From a virus, in IMG/VR virus record IMGVR_UViG_3300035698_005305, positions 1 to 40,399 of that record: a stretch of DNA of 40,399 nt. One strand, given 5' to 3'. A program made the translations under genes and the position numbers. The notes beneath the pieces are model-generated. The model saw only the letters and a list, made by a program, of their open reading frames with translations. It had not been told where the DNA came from and did no database searches. This document shows positions 1,457-31,519 of the stretch, piece after piece (the stretch's first letter is position 1; every line of letters starts with the position of its first letter).

Positions 1457-1464
1457 TATTTATA
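1457..1464 (-). promoter_or_regulatory. T4-type late promoter (TATAAATA) for the tail fibre gene
   Basis: Exact TATAAATA on the minus strand, 67 bases before the fibre start and overlapping the stop codon of the endonuclease gene. The sequence is palindromic (TATTTATAAATA), so a plus-strand copy also exists, but no gene follows it on that strand. Confidence 0.7.
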
Positions 1465-2233
1465 AATAAAGCTGAATTGATGATCTACTAATCATCCAAC
1501 CCTTGTATTTTGAACGTCCTTTCTCTAATGCAGATCGCATGGATCTACTATTCATTCCACGTTTTTCACAAAATTGCTTCAATAAAGTTATATTATCATA
1601 TTTCACTCCTTCGGGTGAAATTAAACAATATTTATATTTTTGACTTACTCTTTCTTTTATGCTATATACTTTTCTCAGTGATTCGCTCATTCTTCTTCGA
1701 ATAACATCACTTCGTTTGGTTCCATAAGCATTTTTATTACCTCTGTTAGCTATACTCATCTTTTTTCTAGTTTCTTCACTTGCCTTTTTGCCTCTTTTAA
1801 CTATACTCATCTTTTTTCTAGTTTCTTCACTTACCTTTCTACCTCTGTTAGCTATACTCATCTTTTTTCTGGATTCCACAGTATGTTTTCTACCAGAACT
1901 TAATTCTTTAAACAGTTTCCTAAGCTCAATTTGTCGTTCCTTTGATAAATTATGAAATGCCATTCCGCCATCACCACCACTCGTGATGTTATAACCAATA
2001 TTTCTATCACGTGCGCCTAATTCAGCAATCCAAAAGACTTCCCTTTCGTTCAATGTAATTTTGTCTTTTATTCCTTTTTCGAGAATCTCTCTATCAAAAT
2101 TATTTCTTCTGTATTTTTTAATAGCCTGTTTTAAAATTTTACCCGAACCTAAATATCCATCATCTGCAGACGTGTTGTGTTGTCCGACGTAAATCTTACC
2201 ATTAATTAAATTTGTAGTTTTATATATTATCAC
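1460..2233 (-). CDS. Free-standing GIY-YIG homing endonuclease with NUMOD3 repeats
   Basis: A 257-residue protein. The N-terminal ~95 residues match the GIY-YIG nuclease fold: I3-Y4, Y15-V16-G17, then a GYNITSGGDGG stretch typical of phage seg-type enzymes. Residues ~110-170 hold NUMOD3-type DNA-binding repeats (SEETRKKMSI...RG) with a 17-residue period, visible in DNA as a 51-base tandem repeat. The product is expected to cut DNA of related phages lacking the gene and so spread itself. It starts with GTG at 2233, chosen because GAGAGG lies 6 bases upstream and the GIY-YIG core needs this start. It sits between the gp7-like gene and the tail fibre gene. Its leader carries the structured RNA element also found before the two Vsr-like endonucleases. 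Confidence 0.9.
   Translation of the reverse strand: MIIYKTTNLINGKIYVGQHNTSADDGYLGSGKILKQAIKKYRRNNFDREILEKGIKDKITLNEREVFWIAELGARDRNIGYNITSGGDGGMAFHNLSKERQIELRKLFKELSSGRKHTVESRKKMSIANRGRKVSEETRKKMSIVKRGKKASEETRKKMSIANRGNKNAYGTKRSDVIRRRMSESLRKVYSIKERVSQKYKYCLISPEGVKYDNITLLKQFCEKRGMNSRSMRSALEKGRSKYKGWMISRSSIQLYL
1751..1890 (-). repeat. 51-base tandem repeats encoding NUMOD3 motifs
   Basis: The word TATACTCATC recurs at 1751, 1802 and 1853, a 51-base (17-codon) period, with the first two units nearly identical. Encoded units read like SEETRKKMSIVKRGKKA. This is in-frame expansion of the DNA-binding repeat within the GIY-YIG gene. Confidence 0.85.
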
Positions 2234-19984: not shown

Positions 19985-21631
19985 TTATAATATCATATAC
20001 TTCAATGACCCAGAATCGTATATTCTATATATTTTACGTTCTAACATAATTTCTCGTTCAGTTTTATTTTTATCGTAACCCAGTTTAATTAACTCGGATT
20101 TCCTATATTTAAACCTGTTTTCGCGAATACCATTAACAACATAATAATAATTTGGTTTTGTTTTATGCATTAATTTAAATCCTAATTTTTCATATAATAC
20201 TCCTTTTGACCACGATCTATCGGCATAACTAATAACTCGAATGGGATTATATGTTCTGGAAAAATACTTAAATAATTTAGATGCCCCACCAACTACTGTT
20301 GTATTCAATTTATTACAAAATCTCAATAATTCATAATAGTCATCTTTGGATGTTTGACCTAAATTCTTTCTCAACCCACCAAACGTCATTAACGATACCA
20401 ATACACCATTATAATATAATCCACATCTAATTTTCGATATGCTACTTCCCTGCAAATGATTATCTATTAAAAAATCCCTCGATGTTTTGTAATCAACTTC
20501 TTTTATTATGCATTTTCTCGCGTATATTCTTTCGGAATGCCCGATGTGATTCATAATTCTCGATTTAACTATATCCTGCTTATACATCCAATCATCCTCA
20601 TAAATATGGATTAATTGAATTCCTTCTCGTTCGCATAAATCAGTCTTATTTAAGTGATAATCATTTGATTTATTCACTTCATTGTGCCAATATACTCCAT
20701 TATATTCAAATGCTAATTTTAACTCCGGTAAATATATATCCAATTCTAATGGAGCAATCAAATTTCTATTATTAATTTCAATTTTTCCTTTATAATGAGT
20801 TTCAATAAAATTCAAAACCCCCTTTTCCGCGATTGATGTTAAATGTTCAAACGAGTTGATAGGAGTACAATTAGTACATATATCTTGGTTTTTGTCAATT
20901 CTAAAAACCATAGTATAATACATTATCTCAAAATTCCTATTACATTTTGGACAATTTCCTATTATATCATATATTACATTCGAAAAATAATTTTTAACAC
21001 GGGTATTAATAAATGTCTTATTTTGACTTTTCAACATATCAAAAAGCCGATTATTTCGTCTATCATTCAACATTTTTGAGTTTTTCGGAATCGACGATGA
21101 ACAATACACACCATAATTGTTAAACATCGTAAATGCCTTTTTTTCTTTTATCTCAGTTAACTTTGATATATTATCTATACCATATTTTTCTATAACAGTA
21201 TTTTTGACTTTATTCTGAATTACGGAAGAGTGGAATGGACTTACCACACCATATCTATTTACACAAGTCTTTTTTATCCGTGCGGAATTTCTATAATTCT
21301 CGTCACCATATTTTTTTCTTTTACTATTCTTTATTTTTGTGGTTATTTTTATTCGATCCACATCCGTTTTATTCTTCCATGTCTCGGTAACTTTTCGTTT
21401 ATGATTTTCGTCTTTACTTGAACATTCTCTATGATATTCAGAATATCCCTTTGTCGCATTGATAAATGTAGTTTCTTTTCCACAAACCACACAAATACCT
21501 TCGCCATCTTTTCTTAAATAGGTATCATAATATTTCTTGGGGGTTTGGTTGTGTACAGGAATAACGTGATTTTTGATAAAAGTGTTAGTTCTTATATATT
21601 TTGTATCTATACCGCAAATTAAACATTTCAT
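19985..21631 (-). CDS. Free-standing Vsr-like (EDxHD-type) homing endonuclease
   Basis: A 548-residue protein. The N-terminus has a CxxC zinc-binding module (MKCLICGID...H...H) and a second (ICVVCGKET...C). The middle contains repeated DNA-reading units (RYGVVSPF, KYGIDNISK, NYGVYCSSS). The nuclease core at ~280-360 reads LELDIYLPELKLAFEYNGVYWHNE and then IQLIHIYEDDWMYK, the Vsr-like PD-(D/E)XK pattern of I-Bth0305I-type enzymes. The C-terminal ~170 residues (LRFCNKLN, VVGGASKLF, ISYADRSWS..LYEKLGFK) look like the Mom/GNAT-like domain often fused to such enzymes; that comparison is inference. It lies between tube and sheath genes with its own sigma-70-like promoter, structured leader and AGGAGG. 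Confidence 0.85.
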   Translation of the reverse strand: MKCLICGIDTKYIRTNTFIKNHVIPVHNQTPKKYYDTYLRKDGEGICVVCGKETTFINATKGYSEYHRECSSKDENHKRKVTETWKNKTDVDRIKITTKIKNSKRKKYGDENYRNSARIKKTCVNRYGVVSPFHSSVIQNKVKNTVIEKYGIDNISKLTEIKEKKAFTMFNNYGVYCSSSIPKNSKMLNDRRNNRLFDMLKSQNKTFINTRVKNYFSNVIYDIIGNCPKCNRNFEIMYYTMVFRIDKNQDICTNCTPINSFEHLTSIAEKGVLNFIETHYKGKIEINNRNLIAPLELDIYLPELKLAFEYNGVYWHNEVNKSNDYHLNKTDLCEREGIQLIHIYEDDWMYKQDIVKSRIMNHIGHSERIYARKCIIKEVDYKTSRDFLIDNHLQGSSISKIRCGLYYNGVLVSLMTFGGLRKNLGQTSKDDYYELLRFCNKLNTTVVGGASKLFKYFSRTYNPIRVISYADRSWSKGVLYEKLGFKLMHKTKPNYYYVVNGIRENRFKYRKSELIKLGYDKNKTEREIMLERKIYRIYDSGSLKYMIL

Positions 21632-23789: not shown

Positions 23790-25373
23790 TTAATTGAAAC
23801 ACCCAAGATTCCAATCAAATCCCCATTCATCCACACCCGCATCCAGTTCCATAACCACGGGTGGAAGTGTTTCATCGTCATCAGAGACTCTATATTTACC
23901 ATCGACTGATTTAATTCCAAGATCTCTATCATCAAAATGTTGGGTTATCAAGAAATAAATTGCCCAAATTAAAGAAGTAACCGCGTCATCATGTTCAGTA
24001 GCAGATGCTTTGAACACATCTGGACGTACCTCTTCATAGAGTGATAATTCGTATACTGTTCTTCGATCAAACAATTCTAACCACCCACTTTCCAAATATC
24101 TTTTTAATAACATATTTCCAGTGAGCTTTGATTTTCGCGTGGATCTAATACCGATGCTTTGTTTTCTTTCATCACAATTCAATATTTTATCGTATTCATA
24201 ATCCCACCAAATCGCGTTCACGACTTCGGCACCAACATCATTATTCTCAACCATCATATACGCACCATTATAATACTCGGAAACTGATATACATACTTGA
24301 GCAAAATCATACGGAGATATCATATTATTTCGGTAAATAGCAACCTGTTTAATATCATGTTCACCTAATATCTTTATGATTTGAATAGTCGAAAAATCAC
24401 TCCCTATACCTTTAGAACTATCCACACCAAGTATATAAGTTGCATTAGGAATCGGACGTTCGTAAATATGTAAATAATCTTTCATTGATAATTGTATAGG
24501 TTCCGTTGTACTATCACCTATTTTCTCTAACATCCCACCTTCAATTAAAGTGGAACTCGAACCTATGAATTTTGCCGCATACTCTTGATTCCATTTGACT
24601 ATACCAATATCTCGGATAACCTCATCTCTCCATGCTTCATCGCGACCCGGAACTTCATCCCAATTAATTTTTATTGGTCTAAAGTTATTATTCCCTTTAA
24701 CCGCATCATTATATATGTGGTAAAACCGATTCAAACCATGTGGAGTACTCACCACGATTATTTTAGCTGTTTTACTCGAAGAAATGGTTGGATAAACAGA
24801 AGACATGAAATCTTCCACGATATTCGATGGTACAAAAGCAAACTCATCCAATAAAAGTAATGAAATGGATTCTCCGCGGATCGCGGAAGAAGCAGTCGAA
24901 GCAGATATTATTCTCACTCCGTTCTCCAATTCTACTTGAATTTTACTCCACCCACCTTCTTTCACACCTTGTTGTAACCACAATGGTAGTTCTTCATATG
25001 CCATTTTGATTCTTCTAAGAATTTCTTTGGCTGTTTTTTCTTTATTAGCAAGCACCGCGATATATTTATCTTCATTGAAAATCGCATACCAAACCATATA
25101 AATCGTGGATATGGTTGTTTTTCCGATCTGACGCGACGATAGGCAACATATATGTCTTTTTTTGGGATCATCTTCGACAAATGCTTTCAACATTCGTTTC
25201 TGATATTCATGAAGAGGTATTAATTGTTTACCCTCATCGATATTAACAATATAGAAATAATTCTCTGCAAAATAGATAATATCTTCTTTACATCGAAACC
25301 ACTCCTTTAATATATCCGGTGGGTATTCAATTTGTTCGCCCTCTCCTCTGAGTTTTGGATTACCATTATGCAT
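23790..25373 (-). CDS. 17: Terminase large subunit gp17 (packaging ATPase-nuclease)
   Basis: A 527-residue protein (T4 gp17 is 610). ATPase: adenine-side motif LHEYQKRML, Walker A SSRQIGKTT (residues 79-87), Walker B LLLLDEFAF with D176-E177, and coupling motif VVSTPHG. Nuclease: a first acidic motif LGVDSSKG, a middle motif MVENNDVG, and a last EHDDAVTSL, the RNase H-like headful nuclease. It docks on the portal and pumps and cuts DNA. The start ATG lies inside the end of the upstream ATPase-only gene (8-base overlap ATGCATAA), implying coupled translation. The weak upstream GGGAAT suits coupling. Confidence 0.94.
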   Translation of the reverse strand: MHNGNPKLRGEGEQIEYPPDILKEWFRCKEDIIYFAENYFYIVNIDEGKQLIPLHEYQKRMLKAFVEDDPKKRHICCLSSRQIGKTTISTIYMVWYAIFNEDKYIAVLANKEKTAKEILRRIKMAYEELPLWLQQGVKEGGWSKIQVELENGVRIISASTASSAIRGESISLLLLDEFAFVPSNIVEDFMSSVYPTISSSKTAKIIVVSTPHGLNRFYHIYNDAVKGNNNFRPIKINWDEVPGRDEAWRDEVIRDIGIVKWNQEYAAKFIGSSSTLIEGGMLEKIGDSTTEPIQLSMKDYLHIYERPIPNATYILGVDSSKGIGSDFSTIQIIKILGEHDIKQVAIYRNNMISPYDFAQVCISVSEYYNGAYMMVENNDVGAEVVNAIWWDYEYDKILNCDERKQSIGIRSTRKSKLTGNMLLKRYLESGWLELFDRRTVYELSLYEEVRPDVFKASATEHDDAVTSLIWAIYFLITQHFDDRDLGIKSVDGKYRVSDDDETLPPVVMELDAGVDEWGFDWNLGCFN

Positions 25374-26049
25374 TTATTTCGTATTCCCGATTAAAAGCAT
25401 CATATTTAACTTTAAAATACTCAAAATCATCTCTATACCGAAACATAGATACTCCGGTTCCTACAGAAAATATCTTCGATCTGCGATTTGCTTTAATGAC
25501 TGGCAACGCACACTCCAAAAAGAGTGTTTTTTCTGAACATGGAGCGAAACAATATTCATCTAAGAAATAATTTATTGATGCATCACCTTTTAATTGTGAA
25601 AATATACTTTTAGCGGTGATACTAATTCCATTCCAAAATTCCAAAGAATATTTATTCCGAACACAAAAAGTATCATATTCGTTATCAGAACCCATCATTT
25701 TATATAACTCATAACAAAAAGATTCTATAAGATCTCTAACTTGTTTAAGAATCAATTCTGCATTCTTCATTTTATAACTAAGGATTACTGTGTTACCACC
25801 ATTATTTAACACATTCCACGCGCACGCAATTACAATAAGTACAGATTTGCCTACTTGGCGAGATGCTTCAATATCTATATTAGATTGGGTTTTATTAGAT
25901 GCAAATGATCTCAAAATCGTTTTTTGATAATCATATAACTTTATCGATTTCTGATCACGATCCGCATTAGTGCAATAAAAATATTTTTCTGCGAAATAAA
26001 CAATATCGTGCTTACATTTACAAATTTCTCTCTCGTATTCTGTTTTCAT
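25366..26049 (-). CDS. ATPase-only terminase paralogue immediately upstream of gp17
   Basis: A 227-residue protein from the ATG at 26049, chosen because AAAGGAATTGAAG precedes it; a Met at 26085 has no ribosome site. It reads like gp17's N-terminal half: CKHDIVYFAEKYFY against gp17 CKEDIIYFAENYFY, KLYDYQKTILRSF against LHEYQKRMLKAF, Walker A ASRQVGKS (K68), Walker B NYFLDEYCF (D164-E165), and a coupling-motif-like FSVGTG near 195. It ends about where the gp17 nuclease domain would begin. The catalytic residues appear kept, so it may be an active second ATPase, a motor regulator or a diverging duplicate. It overlaps the preceding gene by 32 bases and gp17 by 8. Confidence 0.82.
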   Translation of the reverse strand: MKTEYEREICKCKHDIVYFAEKYFYCTNADRDQKSIKLYDYQKTILRSFASNKTQSNIDIEASRQVGKSVLIVIACAWNVLNNGGNTVILSYKMKNAELILKQVRDLIESFCYELYKMMGSDNEYDTFCVRNKYSLEFWNGISITAKSIFSQLKGDASINYFLDEYCFAPCSEKTLFLECALPVIKANRRSKIFSVGTGVSMFRYRDDFEYFKVKYDAFNREYEINA

Positions 26050-26377
26050 CTTCAATTCCTTTTTTTGATTCAATAATATATTCATGGACTAAATTAATTA
26101 CATATTCTTTTGTTTTATGTTTAACATTAACACCTGTAATTGTCGAAAAATATTCTCGCGAAAGTTTACTCTCTTTGCTACATAGCGCGGAAAGCAATTC
26201 CACTTCATCTTTTTCTTTTATAAACGTGATGAATTTTTTAAACCAACCCCGTTGTTGTTCTAAGATTTCATTTCGGTTTAACTTACCAAAAAAACCTTTT
26301 TCATAGTATTTATCAAATACTTCACGAAAAATATCTACGTCTTTGGTTTCTAATAAATAATATTCTTTAAAACGCAT
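26018..26377 (-). CDS. Uncharacterised small protein between gp16 and terminase paralogue (119 aa)
   Basis: I do not recognise this protein. It starts MRFKEYYLLETKD, is highly charged and helical throughout (FDKYYEKGFFGKLNRNEILEQQRGWFKKFITFIKEKDEVELL), and ends with a Glu/Arg-rich tail. The frame is real by context: it begins 5 bases after the gp16 stop and its 3' end overlaps the next gene by 32 bases, as in tightly packed phage operons. A part in DNA packaging is possible from position between small and large terminase genes only. Confidence 0.65.
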   Translation of the reverse strand: MRFKEYYLLETKDVDIFREVFDKYYEKGFFGKLNRNEILEQQRGWFKKFITFIKEKDEVELLSALCSKESKLSREYFSTITGVNVKHKTKEYVINLVHEYIIESKKGIEDENRIRERNL

Positions 26378-26382
26378 GAATC

Positions 26383-26886
26383 TTAATCTCCATCTTCTAT
26401 TCTAAATTCTGCTTTGATTTCGTTTAAACTACTATTAGCTTTTGCATTTTTAGCCATTTTTAATAAGTCACTACTACTTAAATATTGATTAACAGTCAAA
26501 CTATTAGAAGACTTATTTGCTGTTTTGTCATCTATTTGTAATTGAACCACCGTTTTATTTAATTCCATAAGACCTTTAATAGTATCTACTAATTTACCCA
26601 TACCATTAAAAAATACCTCTGCTTGTCGCGGAGCTGATCCAATCTTAATATCTTTTCGTATTGTTTCTAGTACTTCTTTTCCACCCTCAATCAAATCTTT
26701 TAATGTGTCTTGCATGAACTCTTTATCCTGCAAAGTCATATCTGTTACATTCTCGATTTTCTTCGCGATCACATTCTTTTTCTTTTCGATTATATCCAGA
26801 TTTTCTTCTAAACAATCAAAATCAGTATTCAAGGCATCTGAGATCCCTTTGAACGCATCTTTTAATTCATCACTTATATCACTCAT
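26383..26886 (-). CDS. 16: Terminase small subunit gp16
   Basis: A 167-residue protein, close to T4 gp16 (164). It has a Glu/Lys-rich helical N-terminal half (LNTDFDCLEENLDIIEKKKN), a central coiled-coil part (RQAEVFFNGMGKLVDTIKGLMELNKTVVQLQ) and a C-terminal segment (SLTVNQYLSSSDLLKMAKNAK). The last resembles the T4 gp16 pattern of a VNTTNNAVFVGSTADLLK type. It forms a ring that binds phage DNA and stimulates the gp17 motor. It follows the gp15 gene and precedes terminase genes in T4 order. Assignment is by layout and position, with low sequence identity. Confidence 0.75.
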   Translation of the reverse strand: MSDISDELKDAFKGISDALNTDFDCLEENLDIIEKKKNVIAKKIENVTDMTLQDKEFMQDTLKDLIEGGKEVLETIRKDIKIGSAPRQAEVFFNGMGKLVDTIKGLMELNKTVVQLQIDDKTANKSSNSLTVNQYLSSSDLLKMAKNAKANSSLNEIKAEFRIEDGD

Positions 26887-26900
26887 AATAAAATCCTTGA

Positions 26901-27758
26901 TTAAGGCAATTCACCAGCCGAGTACGTAAACGATTGTGCATTTACTGCATAATATCCCGTTGCGCTTTGACCATCAATTAATGCCGAGAATGTTCCCGAT
27001 GTATCATAATCAGCAGAAGATGAAAACGCGCTTGTATCTGCAAATGCACTTGTGTTGTATTGTTCGGTTAATATATTAGTCGCACTTGAACTAGAACCAT
27101 TCGTATCAACAAAGTATCTCGAACGAATTTCTTTGATGACTTTTGCATTTTTTACCGGACGATACATCCAAGCGGCGATCGTAAAACTCAAAATCGCGTT
27201 AACTTCACGTTTCTCTGATTCTTCTTGATCTGTAATAAATTCCGGAGAAACTCCAGTCAAAAGAACCTGTAAAGTTCGTTCAACATCCAAAAATGAAAAT
27301 TCTTTGACTCTTAAATAAAGAGCTGGATTAAAATATGGTAGAATATTCTCTAAGATTTGAGAAAAATCATCCATAGATTCAGTTCTTATCATCATGTCAA
27401 AATCAATATCATATGGAGTCGGTTGTATATCTGTAACGAATTCTGTTATATTATCAAGACCTAACGCATTATCATAAAATTGTCTCGTTTCATTTATACC
27501 ACATGCGCGTTCTGCGCTGTAGTTAAACCCCATAGGAACAATAGAAATTCGCGGTAACTGCATATAATAATCTTTACCAGTCTCGCGTTCTTTTCGATAA
27601 TATTGAAATTTATTAACAGGACCAAATGTGATCGGTACTGAAATCTCTTTAGATACAACACCATAATCATCCAAACGCTGGACTTTTAAATCATTGAACA
27701 TATCCGATAACGCTGTTACTATGTTTCGGATTGTATGTGGATAGTACCATGTTAACAT
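26901..27758 (-). CDS. 15: Proximal tail sheath stabiliser / tail terminator gp15
   Basis: A 285-residue protein (T4 gp15 is 272). The N-terminus WYYPHTIRNIVTALSDMFNDLKVQR followed by ISVPITFGPVNKFQYYRKERE and LPRISIVPMGFNY tracks T4 gp15 (RRYATLMGDLF, RVPITYASKEHF, LPRINLHLVDFSY). The gp15 signature PTPYDIDFDMMIRTESMDDFSQILENILPYFNP follows. The C-terminal ~70 residues are Ser/Thr/Ala-rich and unlike T4. It caps the sheath and tube and joins them to the neck. A late promoter lies 34 bases upstream. Confidence 0.9.
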   Translation of the reverse strand: MLTWYYPHTIRNIVTALSDMFNDLKVQRLDDYGVVSKEISVPITFGPVNKFQYYRKERETGKDYYMQLPRISIVPMGFNYSAERACGINETRQFYDNALGLDNITEFVTDIQPTPYDIDFDMMIRTESMDDFSQILENILPYFNPALYLRVKEFSFLDVERTLQVLLTGVSPEFITDQEESEKREVNAILSFTIAAWMYRPVKNAKVIKEIRSRYFVDTNGSSSSATNILTEQYNTSAFADTSAFSSSADYDTSGTFSALIDGQSATGYYAVNAQSFTYSAGELP

Positions 27759-29802: not shown

Positions 29803-31519
29803 CTAATCCATTACAAATTTTAAAGATCCGGAATCGTATATTCTATATATCTCTCGGTCTAACATTATTTGATGTTCCGTTTTATTAGAGTCATATCCCT
29901 GTTCAATTAACTCGGATTTACGATATTTAAACCTATTTTCCCGAATACCACCAACCACATAATGATAATTTGGGTTGGTTTGGTCACCTAACACAAATCC
30001 CAATTTTTTATATAGTTTCCCGACAGACCAAGAACGATCCGCGTAACTAATTACTCGATGGGGAATATGATTTTTCATAAAATGAGCAAATAACCTAGAA
30101 GCACCCCCAACAACAGAATAATTTAATTTGTTACAAAATCGCAATAATTCAAAATTACCTTCTTTAATATCATAACCCAAATTCTTTCTCAATCCACCAA
30201 ATGTCATCAACGAAATCAATTCTTCATCGTAAAATAAACCATACCTAATTTTTGATATACAATTACCCTGAGTATGATTTTCGTTTAAAAATATACTCGA
30301 CTCTTTCGCGACTACTTTTCTTATTTCACACTTACGCGCATATATCTTTTCGGATTTTCCCAATAAATTTAAGATCCTAGATTCAATTATATTTCGTTTA
30401 TACATCCAATCATCCTCATAAATATGGATTAACTGAATTCCTAGTTTCTCACATAATTCTGTTTTGGTCTTATGATATACATTCGGTTTATGTAATTCAT
30501 TATGCCAAAATAACCCATTAAATTCAAATGCCAATTTTAATTCGGGCAAATAAATATCTATCTCAAGTGGACTAATTATCTGTTTTGTATTAACAGTAAC
30601 TTCACCATAGTAATTTTTCTGTATAAAATCAACAACATCCTTTTCTGCAAAAGAAGTCCCGTTTAAAAAAGGTTCACATATTTGACATTTTAATTTTCTG
30701 TTATTAATCAATCGCAATCTAAATAACTGAACTTGTACATCAAAAATTTCTCCGCATTCACATCTACACGTAACAATACCACGTTCATAACTAATCACAT
30801 CAACACCGATATTTCTTGCATTTTCTTTAAAATGGGACATATGCATTCCGTTAAGTGTGTTTTTAATCTTATTTAATACCATATTAGATTGCGCTGGATA
30901 TTTAGTTCCGTATTTACCAAGATTAGTATTAATTTGCACGTTGTTTAACTTTTTCGTTTTTCATTGGATTATCAACGCCATACTTTTCCAATAGTGTTTC
31001 TTTGGTTTTACCTTGCGCGGATTCCAACTGAAACACATTTTCTACTCCATATTTTTTTAAATTGGTGTTTTTTATCTGTTCAATATTATTCACACTGTTA
31101 TATTTTTTCTTTTTCTTTTCCGCGGATTCAACATAAAACCCTTCTTTTTGAAAATACGACTCCACACCATAACGGTCTAAATTAGTATTCTTCTGCTTTT
31201 CGATTGATTCCGGATTATACATATTATGATAATAACCAGTTTTTTTAAAATACGTTTGTCTTGCTTTTTCTTTGGTATCACTCGATGAACAACTAACACA
31301 ACAATATTGTCTATAACCATTAGATGGATTTATAAATTTAGTCTCATTCTCGCAACCCTTTCTATTACAAATATTATCTTCTGATTTTTTGATATATTCA
31401 TCGTAATATTCTTGCGCGGATAAATTATGTATTTTTTTAACATGTAATTTAAAAAATGTCTTTGGTGTATACATCGTATATTCATTACAAATATGACAAA
31501 AAGTAGCTTTTTTATTCAT
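29803..31519 (-). pseudogene. Vsr-like homing endonuclease split by a one-base frameshift
   Basis: Two frames together equal one protein of about 571 residues, paralogous to the endonuclease at 19985-21631 (548). The first (31519-30929, 196 residues) has the Cys-rich N-terminus and repeats RYGVESYF, KYGVENVF and KYGVDNPM. The second (30939-29803) has LEIDIYLPELKLAFEFNGLFWHNE, IQLIHIYEDDWMYK and the C-terminal LRFCNKLN, GGASRLF, YADRSWS domain. At 30931-30932 the minus strand reads GCA AAT T AAT ACT AAT. Dropping one T restores ANNTNLGKYG, matching the repeat consensus NTNLxKYG. The second frame has only a GTG without a ribosome site. Inactivation, sequencing error, or recoding are the options. 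Its promoter, structured leader and AGGAGA remain intact. Confidence 0.85.

Follow-up and report, generated by a model that had tools for sequence, protein, structure and literature searches.

A nuclease-less paralogue of the gp17 ATPase domain encoded directly before gp17 in an uncultured T4-like myovirus, and its counterparts in other phages

The packaging gene cluster and the gp17 paralogue

The stretch of DNA analysed here, referred to as the window, is a 40.4-kb piece (40,399 nt) of an uncultured T4-like myovirus from an IMG/VR record and carries genes of the gp13 to gp20 type. The gene order in its late packaging operon is gp15-gp16-119-aa gene-paralogue-gp17-gp18 (Table 1). The reading frame of the paralogue starts with ATG, 7 nt downstream of a good Shine-Dalgarno sequence (AAGGA); an alternative in-frame ATG at 26085 would extend the protein to 239 aa. 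The frame overlaps the upstream 119-aa gene by 32 bp and gp17 by 8 bp. The chance of an open frame as long as this, calculated from base composition, is 8e-10, and the composition per codon position resembles that of the neighbouring genes.

Table 1. Features of the gp15 to gp17 region of the window
Feature	Position	Strand	Basis
gp17, complete terminase large subunit, 527 aa	23790..25373	-	Pfam Terminase_6N 7e-19, Terminase_6C 9e-8
Paralogue, gp17 ATPase only, 227 aa (P0001)	25366..26049	-	BLASTP, PDB, AlphaFold2, Foldseek
8-bp stop/start overlap of paralogue and gp17, ATGCATAA	25366..25373	-	sequence
Weak Shine-Dalgarno-like CGGGA of gp17, within paralogue R-E codons	25385..25389	-	sequence
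Altered coupling motif SVGT (gp17: VVST-P)	25456..25467	-	aligned to T4 T285-T287
Walker B YFLDE, residues 161-165, with catalytic Glu	25555..25569	-	aligned to T4 D255, E256
Walker A/P-loop SRQVGKS, residues 63-69, including the SRQ arginine	25843..25863	-	aligned to T4 gp17 R162, G165, K166
119-aa conserved protein (P0003), between gp16 and paralogue	26018..26377	-	homologues in same position in L004, L005, L009, L127 and others
Paralogue Shine-Dalgarno sequence AAGGA	26057..26061	-	sequence 5' of ATG 26049
gp16, terminase small subunit	26383..26886	-	PHROG 445, E 4e-11
gp15, tail sheath stabiliser	26901..27758	-	Pfam, E 5e-45

The 119-aa protein obtained no assignment above threshold from Pfam, PHROG or NCBIfam; its gene directly follows gp16 in many relatives. 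As judged by eye, the gp16-gp17 interval is a hotspot of accessory genes in relatives (L025:1979-3205, L004:3650-4852, L028:1853-3214), with ORFs that vary by relative (P-loop ATPase, ParB-like, nuclease-like, and Q/N-rich repeat protein). Elsewhere in the window, a homing endonuclease (PHROG 3339) is encoded in two overlapping and probably frameshifted frames (29803-30939 and 30929-31519, both on the minus strand), with an intact relative at 19985-21631, and an ORF resembling a GIY-YIG-type homing endonuclease was recognized by eye at 1460-2233 (minus strand). A search of the window against Rfam gave no match.

A sequence-only reading had proposed that 25366-26049 encodes a paralogue of the gp17 ATPase with Walker A (SRQxGK) and Walker B (DE) motifs, and this is borne out, the motifs being SRQVGKS and LDE. 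The protein shows 29% identity to gp17 of the window across 211 aa (BLASTP, E 2e-26); by sequence, it matches T4 gp17 in the PDB (E 5e-13) and the terminase large subunit family PHROG 5989 (E 1.5e-18), while the match to Pfam Terminase_6N (3e-4) is under the cut-off. A predicted structure without the terminase ATPase fold had been named as a refutation, but the prediction gives the fold of the T4 gp17 ATPase: the AlphaFold2 model, computed with an alignment of the proteins from the collected loci as input, has a pLDDT of 86.9 and a pTM of 0.86, and its first Foldseek match is the T4 gp17 ATPase (2o0j, TMq 0.74). A fold match was also obtained with the terminase of 8dgc, an Avs3 complex, as would be the case for any TerL. 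PADLOC reported no match for the paralogues.

All seven tested ATPase-site residues (T4 Q143, R162, G165, K166, D255, E256, T287) are kept in the paralogue, compared to 32 of 110 among the other columns with at least 80% conservation (Fisher p 3e-4). In the coupling motif (motif III), T287 is kept, and both T286 and the following proline are replaced by glycine, so that ST/TT has become GT. The protein ends before the hinge and the C-terminal RNase H-like nuclease domain, and ATPase subdomain II is largely absent. The end of the paralogue had been placed where the nuclease begins; the nuclease is indeed missing, but so is most of subdomain II. The paralogue is thus a stand-alone, nuclease-less homologue of the gp17 ATPase domain.

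The same arrangement in other phages

The sequence-only reading knew of no standard phage with such a tandem pair, which is incorrect for phages at large: the pair is found in phiM12, phiN3, CBB, GAP32, XbC2, Kaldavass, BF, and SNUABM phages. An ATPase-only copy (half-copy) followed by gp17 is already known from cultured phages and has been published as "unusual" (PMC5259590): CBB_274 was described as a truncated terminase adjoining gp17, and truncated terminases were also reported for other Rak2-like phages and for Sinorhizobium phages phiM12 and phiN3 (Buttimer et al., 2017). A viral fold search led us to the 235-aa protein of phage CBB, and we confirmed the pair in the genomes of CBB, GAP32, XbC2, SNUABM_19, BF, Kaldavass, phiM12, and phiN3. 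The annotations name the pair gp17.2-gp17 in phiM12/phiN3 and CBB_274-CBB_275 in the Rak2-like jumbo phages. In the latter, the ATPase-only ORF lies directly 5' of gp17, and the pair is present across the genera Mimasvirus and Eneladusvirus. No functional study of a tandem truncated terminase was found in the literature.

Close members of the paralogue were found neither by a single-protein search of IMG/VR with P0001 nor by tblastn against cultured phages, where the best matches listed are full gp17s. A first gp17-based scan had suggested that the pair is nearly unique, and this was overturned by a search with the C-terminal half of gp17. In the IMG/VR scans, which used this query and an HMM built from 68 gp17s, ATPase-only copies are patchy, being present in 4 of 129 nonredundant loci that include the start of gp17 and 1.5 kb or more upstream of it. 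Three uncultured relatives (L127, L129, L190) share the gene order of the window including the 119-aa gene, together with a complete gp17. In L135, the half-copy precedes an intein-split gp17, whereas the copy of L027/L097 (Q) is located in a fractured gp17 and follows a gene for a homing endonuclease. According to the alignment, and to tail inspection for the window and L027, all known copies end at about T4 positions 335-365. Two further gp17 relatives were found in genome contigs: L277 has no upstream paralogue, and L278 has almost no sequence upstream of gp17. An apparent exon duplication in L094 proved to be a spurious HMM match within a mini-intein.

In this clade, gp17 often carries inteins or split inteins, at three sites: at the P-loop, before Walker B, and at the ATPase/nuclease boundary. 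It is interrupted in L022, L025-L028, L030, L071, L089, L094, L135, L145, L163-L166, and others, and several of the interrupted genes have genes for Zn-finger, HNH or Vsr-like homing endonucleases between their halves. The paralogue might accordingly be imagined as one half of a gp17 split by an intron or a split intein, to be spliced to another product, given that one of the three sites in relatives is the boundary where paralogues end. This is contradicted by the completeness of the downstream gp17 in the window, L127, phiM12, and CBB, and the paralogue has no intein tail, so that we regard it as hardly conceivable. An intein remnant was also considered as the origin of the truncation and was rejected, the tail CLTTTQT of the L127 copy being an out-of-frame gp17 start sequence.

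Phylogenetic analysis indicates that half-copies arose repeatedly. Placement of all copies in one clade is rejected (AU p 0.02), and more than one origin is therefore concluded from the sequences. The L135 copy and the gp17 adjacent to it are sisters (support 100/98), a relationship that marks a partial duplication in situ. The copies from the window, L127/L129, and L135 fall inside the clade of uncultured gp17s (94/98), and those from Rak2-like phages and phiM12 fall outside of it. Because of their long branches, the exact placement of the window and L027 copies is unsure; a direct derivation of the window copy from the window gp17 gains no support from its position on such a branch.

Selection, divergence, and catalytic residues

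Selection was measured in relatives, the window copy being a single sequence. The dN/dS of the half-copies is 0.20 for phiM12/phiN3, 0.22 for CBB/GAP32, and 0.15 for XbC2/Kaldavass (Fisher p < 1e-10 in all cases); for the neighbouring gp17, it is 0.04 in the cultured pairs. The core of the L127/L129 paralogues gives a dS of 1.48 and a dN of 0.44 (p 2e-6) and hence a dN/dS of about 0.3, a value obtained at near-saturated dS and from alleles that were possibly exchanged by recombination. At the protein level, the half-copies of CBB and GAP32 are 57% identical as compared to 97% for gp17, and those of phiM12 and phiN3 82% as compared to 99%. The half-copies of these relatives thus change several times as fast as gp17.

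Outside the paralogue block, the DNA of L127 and L129 hardly differs over several kb, with 98.9% identity in gp17. Within the paralogue core, 165 differences occur in 369 columns, with nearly identical flanks. This core block looks like a swapped allele, long diverged yet constrained, that recombination may have brought in. Divergent core alleles with few differences nearby were also seen when L127:4500-4960 was compared with L129 and L190, a pattern of an allelic exchange hotspot.

The P-loop lysine is kept in the copies of the window, L027, phiM12, and phiN3, in which all tested ATPase residues are intact. It is lost in three of the six groups, being replaced by Thr in L127/L129, by Cys in L135, and by Leu or Ile in all Rak2-like phages. 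Q143 and R162 (T4 numbering) are kept in 13 of 13 aligned copies, including those devoid of the P-loop lysine. For the catalytically dead L127 copy, the predicted structure is still a full gp17 ATPase fold (pLDDT 90.6; TMq 0.85 to T4 gp17). As the lysine has been lost and purifying selection persists where it is testable, ATP hydrolysis is probably not the shared function of the half-copies.

Simple decay is disfavoured for the class. Decaying relics of a gene 17 duplication, retained through shortness of time, would be consistent with the patchy distribution, with the loss of ATPase residues from several copies, and with the origin of the L135 copy next to its own sister gp17. They are nevertheless improbable, given a dN/dS of 0.15-0.3 in four comparisons, frames that remain open at saturating dS, selective retention of catalytic residues in the window and L027 copies, and persistence of the pair across Rak2-like Mimasvirus and Eneladusvirus. 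The sequence-only reading had already argued against simple decay and retains that point, but its argument from kept motifs fails for the class, where the P-loop lysine is lost under selection. Of the homologue pattern that it had proposed to check, recurrence of the pair in several lineages was found, but intact Walker motifs are not kept in L127/L129, L135, and the Rak2-like phages. Walker-mutated homologues evolving at neutral rates had been named as a refutation; mutated copies do exist, yet they are under purifying selection where this is testable.

The 8-base overlap of paralogue and gp17 was confirmed, and the coupled synthesis that it had suggested is supported by the gene overlap. The overlap comprises 8 nt in the window, 25 nt in L127, and 14 nt in CBB; in CBB, GAP32, BF, and SNUABM_19, the truncated ORF overlaps gp17 by about 11-14 nt. 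The Shine-Dalgarno site of gp17, which is weak in the window, has a perfect AAGGAG as its counterpart in L127, and in both it lies inside the last codons of the paralogue. These features would also suit a translational leader, with gp17 re-initiating at the overlap and the open frame selected regardless of the encoded protein. Such a leader would not select an amino acid sequence (dN/dS 0.2 along the gene) or an ATPase fold, however, and the copies of XbC2 and Kaldavass have no overlap with gp17, while a 112-bp gap precedes gp17 in L135. We consider this explanation very improbable.

Proposed function and comparison with known systems

Probably, the half-copies act as mimics or regulators and are neither parts of the motor nor junk. 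We favour, with a probability of about 0.45, that the paralogue is a nuclease-less mimic of the gp17 ATPase domain which is made together with gp17 and would occupy a partner of that domain without driving packaging. A mimic is the most economical inference because all copies keep a folded gp17 ATPase-domain surface and are made with gp17. The paralogue would be produced jointly with gp17, and its product is expected not to translocate DNA. Candidate partners within the phage are gp16, DNA, and gp17 itself; outside the phage, they are hostile terminase-binding proteins from the host or a rival. Occupancy of the partner would either tune packaging or have a decoy effect. A counterpoint to the mimic is that the window copy keeps all tested ATPase-site residues, although these would be dispensable for pure binding mimicry.

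This counterpoint could be taken to indicate an active auxiliary motor part, with the paralogue in a mixed ring with gp17 at the portal or with gp16-stimulated ATP hydrolysis aiding packaging initiation. The tested ATPase residues are all intact in L027 and phiM12/phiN3 as well, synthesis is coupled to gp17, and the T4 pentamer tolerates ATPase-defective subunits, mixed motors with inactive subunits running more slowly (PMC8589836). The isolated ATPase and nuclease domains of T4 gp17 are active, but do not translocate DNA without the hinge, and the portal-contact residues adjoin the hinge (PMC9958956). Because the hinge is missing, a half-copy is unlikely to act as a translocating subunit; it also lacks the nuclease and the bulk of subdomain II, and the P-loop lysine is lost in half of the groups with selection persisting where testable. 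The hetero-oligomeric motor, one of the options raised initially, is weakened by this loss in selected copies, and we consider an auxiliary motor part unlikely.

For the favoured mimic, patchiness, fast divergence, and allelic swapping fit better with a role in conflict than with a core role in packaging. Avs1-4 immunity recognizes large terminase or portal proteins (PMC12931631), and Tab and anti-Tab defence and counter-defence genes reside in the terS-terL interval of Pseudomonas phages (PMC10884400). A decoy against terminase-sensing Avs immunity is thus a candidate role of the paralogue. More specifically, though still a rather unlikely scenario, repeatedly evolved terminase ATPase mimics might blind Avs-type receptors as decoys or poison the packaging motors of rival phages, which would explain recurrent origin, lost catalysis, purifying selection, rapid divergence, and core swaps.

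On this comparison, a half-copy with gp17 appears to be a recurrent, selected feature independent of ATP hydrolysis, which predicts a binding mimic and not a motor part; gp17.2 of phiM12 is a tractable model. Should the paralogue prove to be a decoy, this would amount to a new counter-defence centred on a protein that is among the most conserved in phages; should it prove to be a regulator, a well-studied molecular motor would gain a new layer of control.

The closest known systems share only part of the properties of the window copy. The truncated terminases of Rak2-like phages (CBB_274, GAP32_268, BF_0272, and relatives; PMC5259590) are likewise ATPase-only ORFs that measure about 230 aa and directly precede a complete gp17, but they are dead (P-loop Lys replaced by Leu/Ile, Walker B DE by DS/DD), their neighbourhood is not gp15-gp16-gp17-gp18, and they form a separate branch. 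The gp17.2 proteins of Sinorhizobium phages phiM12, phiM7, phiM19, and phiN3 (Emdodecavirus) also have intact ATPase residues and no nuclease, within the order gp15-gp16-gp17.2-gp17-gp18; unlike the window copy, they have 196 aa, end earlier (T4 position 335), are not preceded by an intervening 119-aa gene, and are on a separate tree branch. The paralogue has the fold, P-loop, Walker B, catalytic Glu, and cis-arginine in common with the T4 gp17 ATPase domain (2o0h, 2o0j), which however sits in a two-domain protein, whereas in the paralogue the coupling motif is altered and the hinge, the nuclease, and the greater part of subdomain II are absent. T4 also makes shortened gp17 alongside full gp17, by internal initiation (NP_049777-NP_049779), but in these products the N terminus is missing and the nuclease present, whereas the window has a separate gene with the ATPase kept and the nuclease lost. 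The Tab/anti-Tab genes of Pseudomonas phages (PMC10884400) occupy the same terS-terL interval, but encode unrelated proteins without terminase homology.
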